Source: Arthrobacter sp.
Lineage (GTDB): Bacteria; Actinomycetota; Actinomycetes; Actinomycetales; Micrococcaceae
Assembly (NCBI RefSeq): GCF_031179385.1
Contig: NZ_JAPSHV010000017.1
Coordinates: 1-37,737 of the forward strand
Length of the DNA: 37,737 nucleotides
Direction of reading: 5' to 3'
A program made the position numbers and the translations under genes. Position 1 is the stretch's first letter. Every line of letters begins with the position of its first letter. Below, in pieces: positions 12,254 through 15,665 of the stretch. The notes under the pieces were generated by a model, which worked only from the letters and a program-made list of their open reading frames with translations, was not told the DNA's origin and made no database searches.

Positions 12254-12418
12254 ATGAGCAACGAATCGCAGTATGAAGAAGAGCCGCGCCAGCACACCGA
12301 ACAGCCGGCGGAGGGGAAGCCCTCCCAGGATCCTGCTGATACGGGGATACACTCGCAGGACCCGGCTGAGGGCGCAGATACCGAATCGGAAACTTCTGAC
12401 GACTCAGGGCAAGACTAG
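12254..12418 (+). CDS. Small acidic, probably disordered protein (54 residues)
   Basis: ATG 12254 is preceded by a GGAGGG-containing stretch (around 12240). The product is very rich in Glu, Asp, Gln, Ser and Pro, has no hydrophobic segment and contains an internal duplication (PSQDPAD / HSQDPAE). Its TAG overlaps the stop of the convergent methyltransferase gene by a few bases. The frame is short, so the call rests on the Shine-Dalgarno sequence and on the Asp/Glu-biased composition. Function unknown. Confidence 0.5.
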   Translation: MSNESQYEEEPRQHTEQPAEGKPSQDPADTGIHSQDPAEGADTESETSDDSGQD

Positions 12419-13173
12419 AGGCGAGTGGCCCGCCAGCAGTAGGTCAAATACGGGAGCGGCAGCACGGCGTCGGCCTCGTGGCCGAGGTGGTCGTGAAGAT
12501 ACCAGCGCAGGTTCGACTCGACCTTCGCACGGACACCGGGAGAAGCGTTCTGGTAATAGCTGCGGGACCGGGCGAGTTCCACGATGTCCGGAACCCGAAT
12601 GGACTGCGCCCAGCCGACTACCTTCGATTCCGGTACCGAGAATCCGGGGCCGAGGGCAGGGCGATAGCTGGGTTTGAAGACATCGCCAGCGTGCATGATC
12701 CTCGAGAGCCGGTGCACCCAGGGCATGCTCACATCCAACTGGTTCCAGACCAGAGCGAAACTACCACCCGGGATGAGGATGCGCGCAGACTCGGCGCTCG
12801 CGGCAACAGGATCGCACCAGTGCCACGCCTGCGCGATGGTGACAAGGTCGACGCTCGCGGTATCGAGTCCGGTCGCCTCCGCAGTGCCCTCAGTCCTTCT
12901 GACATCGGGAAGGTGCTGGGCGAGGATTGAAAGCATGTCGTCAGAGGGATCGACTGCGGTCACGTCCGGGCAGCGCAGCGCCAGCTCCCGTGTGAACTTA
13001 CCGGTTCCCGCGCCGACGTCTGCGACGCGTTGTGTCCCCGCCGGCACCAACCAATCCACGGATGCAGCAGGGTAGCCGGGACGGACACGGTCATAGCGTT
13101 CACTGTCCTGCAGGTAGCTCCGCGCCATCTCACGACGGCGGTGCGCGGCGAGACGCGGACCTCCAACGCCCAT
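12415..13173 (-). CDS. Class I SAM-dependent methyltransferase
   Basis: A 252-residue protein with a Rossmann methyltransferase core. Motif I is VADVGAGTGKFT (residues ~49-60), the acidic end of strand 2 is VTAVDPSDDM, motif post-I follows with EGTAEATGL, and motif IV-like VDLVTIAQAWHWCD is characteristic of the Methyltransf_11 group that starts YDRVRPGYP. I chose ATG 13173, which has AGGAGT at 13181-13186; an ATG at 13128 is an alternative that would still keep the whole domain. The acceptor substrate cannot be told. Monocistronic, convergent with the small acidic ORF. Confidence 0.88.
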   Translation of the reverse strand: MGVGGPRLAAHRRREMARSYLQDSERYDRVRPGYPAASVDWLVPAGTQRVADVGAGTGKFTRELALRCPDVTAVDPSDDMLSILAQHLPDVRRTEGTAEATGLDTASVDLVTIAQAWHWCDPVAASAESARILIPGGSFALVWNQLDVSMPWVHRLSRIMHAGDVFKPSYRPALGPGFSVPESKVVGWAQSIRVPDIVELARSRSYYQNASPGVRAKVESNLRWYLHDHLGHEADAVLPLPYLTYCWRATRL

Positions 13174-13266: not shown

Positions 13267-14625
13267 TCAGTCGGTGGTGCAGGGGGCAGCCCCGGCCGTT
13301 CCGGGCGTATGTGGAGCCCAGTCGGGGAAGGCCCGTGTCTCCACTGCAGGCACCCAGCGTCCGGCGTCAACCACGTAGTCGGTTCCCAACCCGTTCCTGA
13401 TGAGCGAAGCGAGGCCTGCAAGCAGCCTGTCGACGTCGTCGTGCCGGGAGCCCAGGCCGAAGCTGGCGCGGAGTGATCCGGAGGGCAGGCCGAGACGCTT
13501 CAGCAACGGGTGCGCGCAGAACTTCCCGTCGCGAAGCCCCACGCCATGCTCAGCGGAAAGATATGCGGCGACGAGGCCGGCGTCGTAACCGTGAACTGAG
13601 AAGTTCACCACTCCTATCGCATCGGTGCTGTCCGAGAAGATACGGTGCACCGTCACGCCGGACAGGGCGGCAAGCCCTTCAATCAGAGCGTTCCGGAGAG
13701 CCGACTCGTGCGCGAGCCAGTCATCCGCATCGAGAGCCGCGAGGACTTCTGTCGCATGCGCGAGCGCTGCCGCGCCGAGGACATTCGGGGAGCCGCCCTC
13801 ATGCCGGGCTGGGCCGGTTGTCCAGGACACCGAATCAACCTTCACCGTTTTCACAGCTCCGCCACCGGCGAGGTGCGGCGTCCCGGCGTCGAGCCAGTCA
13901 GGCCTCCCAACCAGCACACCGGCTCCGAAGGGGGCGTACAGCTTGTGACCGGAGAAAACGACGTAGTCGATGCCATCCCTGACGAGGTCCAGCCGCCGGT
14001 GCGGGGCCAACTGGGCGGCGTCGACGACGATGCGCGCCCCGTGCTCATGCGCCACACGGGCGAGCCGGTCGATCGGCAGGATCTCCCCGGTGACGTTCGA
14101 GGCGCCCGTCACGGCGAGGAGACTCACCCGGCCCGACTCCAGTTCTTCCTCCAACGCAGTCAGCGTTCCTTCGATGGTCTCTGCTGCGACGATTCCGCGG
14201 TGAGGGCGGTCGAACCAGGGGAGGAGATTGGCGTGGTGTTCCAGGTCGAGGTAAAGAACCTCCCCGTCCACCGGTACGCAGCCTGCCAGGAGATTGAGGG
14301 AATCCGTGGTGTTGCGGGTGAAGATGACCGCGTCGTCTTCTCGGCCACCGACGAAGGTCCTGACCGTTCTCCGAGCGTTCTCATACAGAGACGTTGAAAT
14401 CTGCGAAGCGTATCCGGCACCCCGATGAACGCTCGCGTAGTAGGGAAGCACGCGCTGCACATAGTCATTTACCGACTGAAGCGCGGGCGTAGATGCTGCG
14501 TAATCCAGGTTGACGTAGCGAACCGTCGCGCCGTCAATCACCGGTGCCTGCAGTTCTGCGCCGAGAACTGCAGCAAGTGGTGCAGTGGTCAGCCCATCAA
14601 CGTCTTCGAGAAGTGCATTGGTCAC
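13267..14625 (-). CDS. Class V aminotransferase fold PLP enzyme, cysteine-desulfurase-like
   Basis: A 452-residue PLP enzyme related to SufS/NifS/CsdA cysteine desulfurases. Family landmarks: VNLDYAASTPA at the start, ASVHRGAGYAS, DLEHHANLLPW, VVDAAQLAPHRRLD, and the PLP lysine in FSGHKLYAPFGAG. The C-terminal region has FSVHGYDAG and the RASFGLGSRHDDVD segment typical of the group. The position of a catalytic Cys is uncertain: GLRDGKFCAHPLL is the best candidate. The start is GTG 14625 with only a weak upstream GGGG. Control by a SAM-IV-type leader and a Cys-containing upstream ORF points to a role in sulfur amino acid or persulfide metabolism rather than general Fe-S assembly; no suf genes are nearby. 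Confidence 0.85.
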   Translation of the reverse strand: MTNALLEDVDGLTTAPLAAVLGAELQAPVIDGATVRYVNLDYAASTPALQSVNDYVQRVLPYYASVHRGAGYASQISTSLYENARRTVRTFVGGREDDAVIFTRNTTDSLNLLAGCVPVDGEVLYLDLEHHANLLPWFDRPHRGIVAAETIEGTLTALEEELESGRVSLLAVTGASNVTGEILPIDRLARVAHEHGARIVVDAAQLAPHRRLDLVRDGIDYVVFSGHKLYAPFGAGVLVGRPDWLDAGTPHLAGGGAVKTVKVDSVSWTTGPARHEGGSPNVLGAAALAHATEVLAALDADDWLAHESALRNALIEGLAALSGVTVHRIFSDSTDAIGVVNFSVHGYDAGLVAAYLSAEHGVGLRDGKFCAHPLLKRLGLPSGSLRASFGLGSRHDDVDRLLAGLASLIRNGLGTDYVVDAGRWVPAVETRAFPDWAPHTPGTAGAAPCTTD

Positions 14626-14650
14626 AGGAATTTACCCCACAAATTCTCAT
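14597..14650 (-). CDS. Putative Cys-containing upstream ORF (leader peptide) in SAM-IV leader
   Basis: ATG 14650 follows GGTGGAG (14655-14661) and opens a 17-codon frame, MRICGVNSCDQCTSRR-like (three Cys), which ends at TGA 14597-14599. It overlaps the first 29 bases of the PLP enzyme gene in a different frame. Cysteine-rich upstream ORFs that control sulfur genes are known in actinobacteria. The reading frame, Shine-Dalgarno sequence and overlap are seen directly; the regulatory role is inference, and a frame this short could arise by chance. Confidence 0.4.
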   Translation of the reverse strand: MRICGVNSCDQCTSRRR

Positions 14651-14654
14651 GGGG
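14635..14654 (-). promoter_or_regulatory. Short hairpin that could sequester the ribosome site of the PLP gene
   Basis: On the minus strand CCCCA (14654-14650) can pair with TGGGG (14639-14635) across a 10-nt loop. The 3' arm holds the only purine-rich GGGG before GTG 14625, and the 5' arm includes the first base of the upstream ORF's ATG. It is therefore a candidate translational switch below the aptamer. Confidence 0.4.
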
Positions 14655-14703
14655 CTCCACCGAGGTTGGCCCCGCGCTTGCCGAACCAATTTTCTGGACG
14701 GCC

Positions 14704-14783
14704 TGGTCGTCACCCGGGGCACCCCACCGCGGAAGGAGGGTTGCCGGCCAGCAAACCGGGGTTTAGCGCTGGCACTCGTGACC
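14704..14783 (-). promoter_or_regulatory. SAM-IV riboswitch aptamer core
   Basis: Read on the minus strand, this begins GGTCACGAGTGCCAGCG, contains GCTGGCCGGCAACCCTCC and GCGGTGGGGTGCCCCGGG, and closes with TGACGACC. This is the conserved core of the SAM-IV riboswitch class found in actinobacteria. P1 (GGTC/GACC) and P2 (GCCAGC/GCTGGC) can be drawn directly, and GGCAACC plus GGTGGGGTGCC are the SAM-pocket elements. The 3' pseudoknot part probably extends beyond 14704 towards 14660. It should lower expression of the PLP enzyme gene when S-adenosylmethionine is abundant. The call is from remembered consensus, not a covariance-model hit. Confidence 0.85.
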
Positions 14784-14840
14784 TAGTAGTTCAGAATAGG
14801 GCAGTCCCGAATAAGATGCGGATTTTGTTACGCGGCGTTG

Positions 14841-15665
14841 TCAGGCGCCGGCGCCTTTCTGCAGGAGATCGTCCAGCGAGGGGTTGAGCATCTTCAGCAC
14901 ATCGTTGTGCAGAATGCTGTTGGTAGCCAGTGCGTTCCCGCCGAAGGGGCCGTCAGCACCTTCGAGTGATGTGAACCGCCCGCCGGCCTCCGTAACAATG
15001 GGCACCAACGCAGCCATGTCGTACAGATTCAATTCCGGTTCGCATGCGATGTCCACTGCACCCTCCGCGACCAGACAGTACGACCAGAAGTCGCCATAGG
15101 CGCGGGTACGCCAGACCGAGTCGGTGAGCGACATAAACTCGTCTAAGTTCCCGCGTTCCTTCCACCCGGTGAGGCTGGAATAGGAGAGGGAGGCGTCCTC
15201 CAGCCGGGAAACGCTCGAAACCCGCAGGCGGGTTGCTGCGGCAAGCGACTTGCCCATGAACGCACCGGTTCCGGTCGCCGCCCACCAGCGCTTGCCCAGG
15301 GCAGGAGCGCTGACGACGCCGACAACCGGACGACCCTCATCAACGAGGGCGATGAGGGTTGCCCACACCGGAACCCCTCGGACGAAGTTCTTGGTGCCGT
15401 CGATCGGGTCGATGATCCATCGCCGGGAGCCGGCGCCGCTGCTTCCGAATTCCTCACCGAGAACGGCGTCGCGGGGGCGGGCTCGCGACAATTGTCCGCG
15501 GATAGCTTCTTCGGCCGACTTGTCGGCATCCGTGACCGGAGTGAAGTCAGGCTTGGTTTCAACCGCCAGATCCAGTGCCTTGAACCTCGACATGGTCTGG
15601 TCGTCCACGGAGTCGGCCATTACATGGGCAAGGCGGAGGTCATCGTTGTAGCTCTGGAGGTTCAT
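14841..15665 (-). CDS. hisN: Histidinol-phosphatase, inositol monophosphatase family
   Basis: A Mg-dependent phosphatase of the IMPase fold; actinobacterial members of this branch at this locus act as histidinol-phosphate phosphatase (HisN), completing histidine synthesis. Metal-site motifs: LGEEFGSSG (E-E), [15 protein letters not shown] (the DPIDGT signature) and [17 protein letters not shown] towards the C-terminus. The aromatic [17 protein letters not shown] stretch is typical of HisN. I start it at ATG 15665 (274 residues); an upstream in-frame TTG at 15674 is less likely. An inositol- or fructose-bisphosphatase role is the alternative. It is downstream of aroA and rsgA on the same strand, but cspA and its terminator intervene. 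Confidence 0.85.

Follow-up and report, generated by a model that had tools for sequence, protein, structure and literature searches.

A SAM-IV riboswitch with a probable shared masking platform before a SufS-like gene in Arthrobacter, and a short cysteine frame that is most likely its by-product

The leader of an aminotransferase class V gene on an Arthrobacter contig raises the question of whether one signal or two control the gene. A first-pass annotation of the window (the whole stretch of 37,737 nucleotides that was analysed) had read in this leader a SAM-IV core, followed by a 17-codon frame with three Cys codons and a hairpin covering the ribosome-binding site of the gene, and had suggested that two signals might be integrated here, S-adenosylmethionine (SAM) through the aptamer and cysteine supply through translation of the short frame.

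The aptamer itself leaves little doubt. A cmscan search against Rfam matched the SAM-IV model (RF00634) over its entire length, positions 1-116 of 116, with 113.7 bits (E 1.8e-20; the gathering cut-off is 38 bits), so that the SAM-IV core of the first-pass annotation holds under a covariance model; SAM-I in its place was rejected, the reported Rfam match being SAM-IV. As is characteristic of the class, the element lies in the 5' leader of a sulfur- or methionine-related gene, 43 bases separating its 3' end from the GTG start, and it presumably binds SAM, judging from this match. Behind the aptamer the leader reads, in order, GCGGGGCC, GGTGGAG, CCCC, the ATG of the short frame (14650), TGTGGGG and the GTG start of the gene (14625). 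Passages of the structural report on SAM-IV (PMC6890682) describe a pseudoknot, PK-2, that joins the side of the P3 loop to the 3' end of the aptamer, and we infer from sequence complementarity that its strands in the window are those listed in Table 1. The last two G of the tail CGCGG are also the first bases of a downstream hairpin, here called hairpin A. Among the 85 leaders compared, the tail reads CAAGCGCGG in 84 and CAAGCGCGA in one, and the CGCG core is invariant in both the P3 loop and the tail (85/85), so that covariation is impossible there. The fifth pair of PK-2 is a standard one in 77 of the 85 (C-G in 31, T-G in 45, T-A in 1) and an A-G mismatch in the other 8; since in these the last G of the tail stands opposite an A of the P3 loop, PK-2 and hairpin A overlap there by only one base.

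The gene encodes a protein of 452 residues of the aminotransferase class V family (Aminotran_5), for which the best NCBIfam model is SufS, with 271 bits against a cut-off of 475. By this score, which is under the cut-off, it is a relative of SufS and no called member, and the earlier label "cysteine-desulfurase-like" is a fair one. The GTG start is backed by a like start context in same-genus relatives; a longer protein beginning within the short frame was rejected, the two frames being different. A Shine-Dalgarno-like GTGGGG is found in 7 of the 9 same-genus leaders, its first base 12-15 nt from the start codon. Downstream, after a gap of 93 bases, follows a methyltransferase-like gene that may be co-transcribed and under the same SAM-IV control. 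Such a gene lies downstream in 66 of 89 loci and hisN upstream in 65 of 89, within the stretches examined, and neither neighbour was seen in Rhodococcus, Nocardia and other more distant loci among the 89. Elsewhere in the window, a tmRNA gene on the plus strand (1740-2107) gives a full Rfam match of 167.4 bits.

Table 1. Positions, in window numbering, of the leader elements and of the genes that follow them
Feature	Positions	Strand	Basis
SAM-IV aptamer (Rfam RF00634)	14669..14783	-	cmscan full-model match
CCGCG, P3 loop, proposed 5' strand of PK-2	14728..14732	-	complementary to 14676-14672
CGCGG, aptamer 3' tail, proposed 3' strand of PK-2	14672..14676	-	complementary to 14732-14728
Hairpin A (anti-masking), GGGGC 14673-14669 / GCCCC 14655-14651	14651..14673	-	fold and covarying relatives
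Hairpin B (masking), CCCCA 14654-14650 / TGGGG 14639-14635	14635..14654	-	covers Shine-Dalgarno
17-codon out-of-frame ORF, 3 Cys, MRICGVNSCDQCTSRRR	14597..14650	-	judged chance frame
GTGGGG, Shine-Dalgarno-like site of Aminotran_5 gene	14635..14640	-	shared motif
Aminotransferase class V / SufS-like PLP enzyme gene, GTG start	13267..14625	-	Pfam PF00266 3.7e-81
Class I SAM-dependent methyltransferase-like gene	12415..13173	-	Pfam Methyltransf_11 1.2e-17

The pairing of aptamer and gene recurs among relatives. An Aminotran_5 gene at E 1e-60 or better was found in 9 of the 38 genus genomes searched, that of the window included, and all nine orthologs are preceded by a SAM-IV match over the gathering score. 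The same holds for 78 of 80 named loci, which are the best of 589 confirmed candidates and comprise nearer relatives only; SAM-IV was absent, among these 80, at L095 (Cryobacterium) and L099 (Glaciihabitans). The statistics below refer to the 85 leaders, out of 89 loci, in which a regular-expression search located the aptamer; L098 and L114, whose SAM-IV was added by cmscan, are excluded from them. The start codon of each leader was taken as the most upstream in-frame start after the aptamer, apart from 21 loci in which it was chosen by hand and L102 and L108, where it was set by motif look-up.

Several observations on SAM-IV elements were made alongside. The other 29 of the 38 genus genomes carry no Aminotran_5 gene at E 1e-60, and SAM-IV is present in all 38; at many of the same-genus loci inspected (L003-L011 and others), the aptamer is followed by an ORF whose beginning, as judged by eye, presumably resembles that of an O-acetylhomoserine sulfhydrylase. 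The genome of the window contains a second SAM-IV, the sole other match found (L002:350-475, minus strand, contig C48, 72.5 bits), preceding a short ORF (343-2, minus) that runs off the contig and that we take, from a motif seen by eye, to be rhodanese-like; both copies found in this genome thus appear, on inspection, to precede sulfur-related genes. In Nocardia carnea (L117) a SAM-I element (S box; 2062-2151, minus) and a SAM-IV (2316-2430, plus) stand back to back with 164 bases between them. Two records labelled as Sporosarcina beigongshangi and as an Acidobacteria MAG (L075, L089) carry an Arthrobacter-like cluster of rsgA, hisN, SAM-IV, Aminotran_5 gene and methyltransferase gene, and are possibly mislabelled or contaminated.

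How the aptamer might act on the gene depends on the bases between them, in which two hairpins compete for the same C run. The CCCCA/TGGGG hairpin that the first-pass annotation had placed over the gene's GGGG (hairpin B) is present in the sequence, and its stem recurs in relatives in altered form, as CCTC/GAGG, TCCC/GGGA, CCCTTG/CAAGGG and CCCTG/TGGGG. Over the 85 leaders the masking stem has a mean score of 3.72, compared to 2.86 for shuffled linkers, and reaches at least 4 in 40 of the 85 against 15.6% of the shuffles; in this scoring the window's own 3' arm was wrongly placed by the automatic rule, and for the energy and tail-blocking tests it was fixed manually as GCCCC. With a predicted -7.3 kcal/mol, the window's masking hairpin is more stable than those of its eight same-genus relatives (-3.4 to -6.3). 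The aptamer and the masking hairpin exceed what chance would give.

Hairpin A was sought in the 85 leaders by a rule under which the two G of the tail pair with C and then with C or T, so that its first two pairs are imposed by the search and provide no evidence. The next five pairs are standard in 79/85, 79/85, 82/84, 79/82 and 71/81 leaders, and most of these positions show several kinds of pair. When the 5' arms were exchanged among the 80 distinct leaders and then re-anchored, the mean score fell from 5.89 for a leader's own arm to 4.72 (sd 0.11), the top of 500 re-deals being 5.02; the window itself is among the three poorest of the 80. A cruder rule that fixed the 3' arm by position only gave weak covariation (0.679 vs 0.633, highest re-deal 0.707). 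This rule seemingly picks the wrong CC within TCCC runs, and the arm-swap control was used instead. In the window, the energy of hairpin A is -9.0 kcal/mol for the bare 5-bp stem and -11.6 for the local minimum fold; as separate pieces, hairpins A and B are similarly stable (-12.8 and -12.3 kcal/mol). By sequence comparison, the competing pairings around the shared CC are thus backed, as would be required of an expression platform.

Given what was obtained here, namely the aptamer, its near-constant place before the gene in relatives and the comparative support for both hairpins, we consider it very likely that this is an ordinary SAM-IV riboswitch, which in the presence of ample SAM represses translation of the SufS-like aminotransferase class V gene. 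With SAM bound, the aptamer 3' tail CGCGG would be kept in PK-2 and could not pair with the downstream CC(CC), which would then be free to pair with the GGGG Shine-Dalgarno of the gene and block ribosome binding. When SAM is scarce, the last two G of the tail, together with the bases that follow, would form hairpin A with the CC, leaving the Shine-Dalgarno free. The direction of control and the role of the tail as switching strand are the probable reading of this arrangement, and the way in which the pseudoknot would lead to release of the CC is proposed from the SAM-IV structure as described in passages of PMC6890682. According to the same passages the SAM-IV fold alters little upon ligand binding, so that the ligand would act through stabilising the fold.

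Folding predictions bear out one part of this scheme. With the tail blocked, the mean probability of pairing between the CC and the Shine-Dalgarno region over the 85 leaders was 0.676, up from 0.317, compared to a rise from 0.047 to 0.222 in the shuffled-linker control, and the rise exceeded 0.2 in 51 of the 85 leaders versus 30% of the shuffles. The accessibility of the Shine-Dalgarno itself behaved no better than in controls, with a mean probability of being unpaired of 0.307 with the tail free and 0.282 with it blocked (shuffled 0.325 and 0.330); it dropped by more than 0.2 in 6/85 and by more than 0.05 in 29/85, and rose by more than 0.05 in 17/85. In the tail-blocking test a drop in accessibility of more than 0.2 was seen in 19/85 leaders against 29% of shuffles, some of the shuffles yielding no value. 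For the window, toggling was not predicted, the masking hairpin being closed in both states with probabilities of 1.00 and 1.00; as hairpin B is present in both predicted folds, tail free and tail blocked, the case for its toggling in the window is one of analogy and of co-transcriptional folding, during which hairpin A would form ahead of hairpin B. A two-state energy comparison favoured the shuffles, with flips in 11% of leaders and 32% of shuffles, and this test is ill-posed since B and the inner part of A are compatible with one another. Pseudoknot-free folding of the whole leader omits the aptamer structure and was therefore given no weight.

The remaining part of the question concerns the short frame. 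The elements noted in the first pass are all there, on the minus strand (no strand had been named): 17 codons, three of them Cys, a GGTGGAG at 14661-14655, 4 bases upstream of the ATG, and an overlap of 29 bases with the start of the gene. The GGTGGAG sits in the variable loop of hairpin A, the ATG begins inside the masking arm of hairpin B, the first Cys codon comes from the TGT within the Shine-Dalgarno TGTGGGG, and the second and third correspond to TGT and TGC in TGTGACCAATGC, the start of the gene in another frame. None of the eight same-genus orthologs, all of which have the aptamer, carries an overlapping ATG frame with a Cys codon, which is the outcome that the first-pass annotation had itself named in advance as refuting; the nearest counterpart is a GTG frame with two Cys, MGLCHEQCRP, in L119. 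Where the window has its ATG, the six closest aligned relatives have TGA, TGA, AAA, TGA, TGA and TGA, and one column earlier TTG, TTG, AAA, CTG, CTG and CTG. From GTGGGG to the start codon the window counts 15 nt and these relatives count 14, 13, 12, 14, 14 and 13, which puts Cys 1 out of frame with Cys 2-3 in five of the six; the sixth, L120, keeps them in frame and has AAA at the place of the ATG.

To put the cysteine content in proportion, 241 mechanically called genes served as background; in 40 of them the start is spanned by an out-of-frame ATG frame no longer than 40 codons, and frames of this length with at least three Cys occur in 2 of the 241 from ATG and in 8 from any start codon. 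The gene caller was crude, in that it misses GGGG-type Shine-Dalgarno sites and missed the 14625 start of the window's gene, and orthologs were kept in. Among the 85 orthologous leaders, 19 have an overlapping frame with at least three Cys when any start and any length are allowed, 6 of these from ATG, window included. A frame this short and this dense in Cys is hence uncommon but not extraordinary, and not clearly above chance, and judged from the sequence it is most likely a chance by-product of the masking arm, the Shine-Dalgarno and the gene start. A start codon and Shine-Dalgarno read in another frame can mimic a cysteine leader peptide, which is a trap for scans for Cys codons near starts.

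It remains to weigh this reading, in which SAM alone is sensed, against accounts that give the frame a function. That SAM acts through the aptamer while cysteine acts through ribosome stalling on the 17-codon frame, opening or covering the start, could draw on the ATG, the plausible GGTGGAG and the three Cys in 17 codons, on a Cys density matched by only 2 of the 241 background genes, on Cys-rich leader peptides that precede cys genes in Actinobacteria (in passages of PMC1262725 and PMC9031893), and on the precedent of a riboswitch combined with an upstream ORF (passages of PMC11260477). Against it stand the absence of the ATG in the six closest aligned relatives with the broken Cys frame in five, the position of the GGTGGAG within the variable loop of hairpin A, and the scattered Cys codons, compared to the near-stop run of the leader peptides in the relevant passages of PMC1262725. 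A terminator-like hairpin, moreover, was not found within 14500-14900, for which reason a Cys attenuator with terminator was also rejected. We hold this two-input account to be exceedingly improbable; of the integration of signals first proposed, SAM sensing with site masking is supported by the model match and the comparison, and the cysteine part, its frame being unconserved, is not. Nearly as improbable is it that the frame, translated at all times and insensitive to cysteine, couples or dampens translation of the gene. Upstream ORFs with effects of this kind, independent of amino acid sensing, are described beside M. tuberculosis B12 riboswitches in passages of PMC11260477, but the frame has no counterpart in any of the eight same-genus orthologs, its ATG begins within hairpin B, and its stop lies 29 bases beyond the gene start, compared to the 4-base AUGA overlap of ppe2 in the same source. 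One could also speculate that the frame is a young one, translated in a single lineage, in which a change in the masking arm made the ATG and translation opens an unusually stable hairpin, adding a second, translation-dependent and possibly cysteine-dependent input. As a species-specific addition it would be invisible to conservation tests, and we likewise give it a very slight chance.

A different objection concerns the level of control rather than the number of signals. SAM might act mainly by ending transcripts prematurely within the leader, through Rho or in other ways, with the hairpins only assisting. In passages of PMC8269248, the premature-transcript ratio of a SAM-IV aminotransferase class V gene of S. 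clavuligerus is among the most extreme, and this premature transcript hints at a transcriptional or processing step. Yet the window leader has no terminator-like site and no T run after hairpin A, the partner of the shared CC is the Shine-Dalgarno, and premature ends could also stem from processing of untranslated message; a mainly transcriptional mechanism is in our view unlikely. Repression of translation through masking of the Shine-Dalgarno is thus retained as the preferred reading.

By the tests run, the window is to be classed as a SAM-IV riboswitch and not as a Cys leader-peptide attenuator, as far as sequence allows. The actinobacterial Cys leader peptides resemble it in that a short frame containing Cys codons precedes a sulfur-related gene, and candidates in Mycobacterium, Propionibacterium and Bifidobacterium have Cys-codon runs near the stop, alignable in Mycobacterium (passages of PMC1262725; Cys-rich leader peptides in Actinobacteria are also ascribed to Canestrari et al. 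2020, as cited in passages of PMC9031893), whereas the window has three scattered and unconserved Cys with no two adjacent in MRICGVNSCDQCTSRRR. In the B12 riboswitches of M. tuberculosis at metE and ppe2, passages of PMC11260477 report that translation of the upstream ORF is shown and matters; the ppe2 leader, like the window, combines a riboswitch with a short ORF that is not in the reading frame of the gene, but the M. tuberculosis ORFs are translated and the window frame is an unconserved one predicted from sequence. The first-pass annotation knew of no such combination of control types, a novelty that this case weakens: even if the window frame were functional, its kind would not be wholly new, riboswitch plus functional upstream ORF being known for B12. 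SAM-IV together with a Cys upstream ORF was not found in the passages of the literature searched.

The closest known systems are those of the SAM-IV class itself, with which the window shares the full 116-position match and complementarity between the 3' tail and the P3 loop (as in passages of PMC6890682); it shows no class-defining difference, its masking hairpin being predicted to be more stable than those of same-genus relatives. Pairing of SAM-IV with a cysteine desulfurase-like gene is already in print for Streptomyces, a genus other than that of the window: by published annotation SAM-IV lies in front of S. lividans SLIV_26975, a "cysteine desulfurase" (passages of PMC8079986), and a SAM-IV leader is predicted for S. 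clavuligerus CRV15_21540, an aminotransferase class V gene and the one with the premature transcript (passages of PMC8269248). To these the window adds a clear example, from an actinobacterium, of SAM-IV in front of a SufS-like gene, and its 85 relatives outline a compact shared expression platform, in which the GG of the tail is followed by the CC and then by the Shine-Dalgarno.
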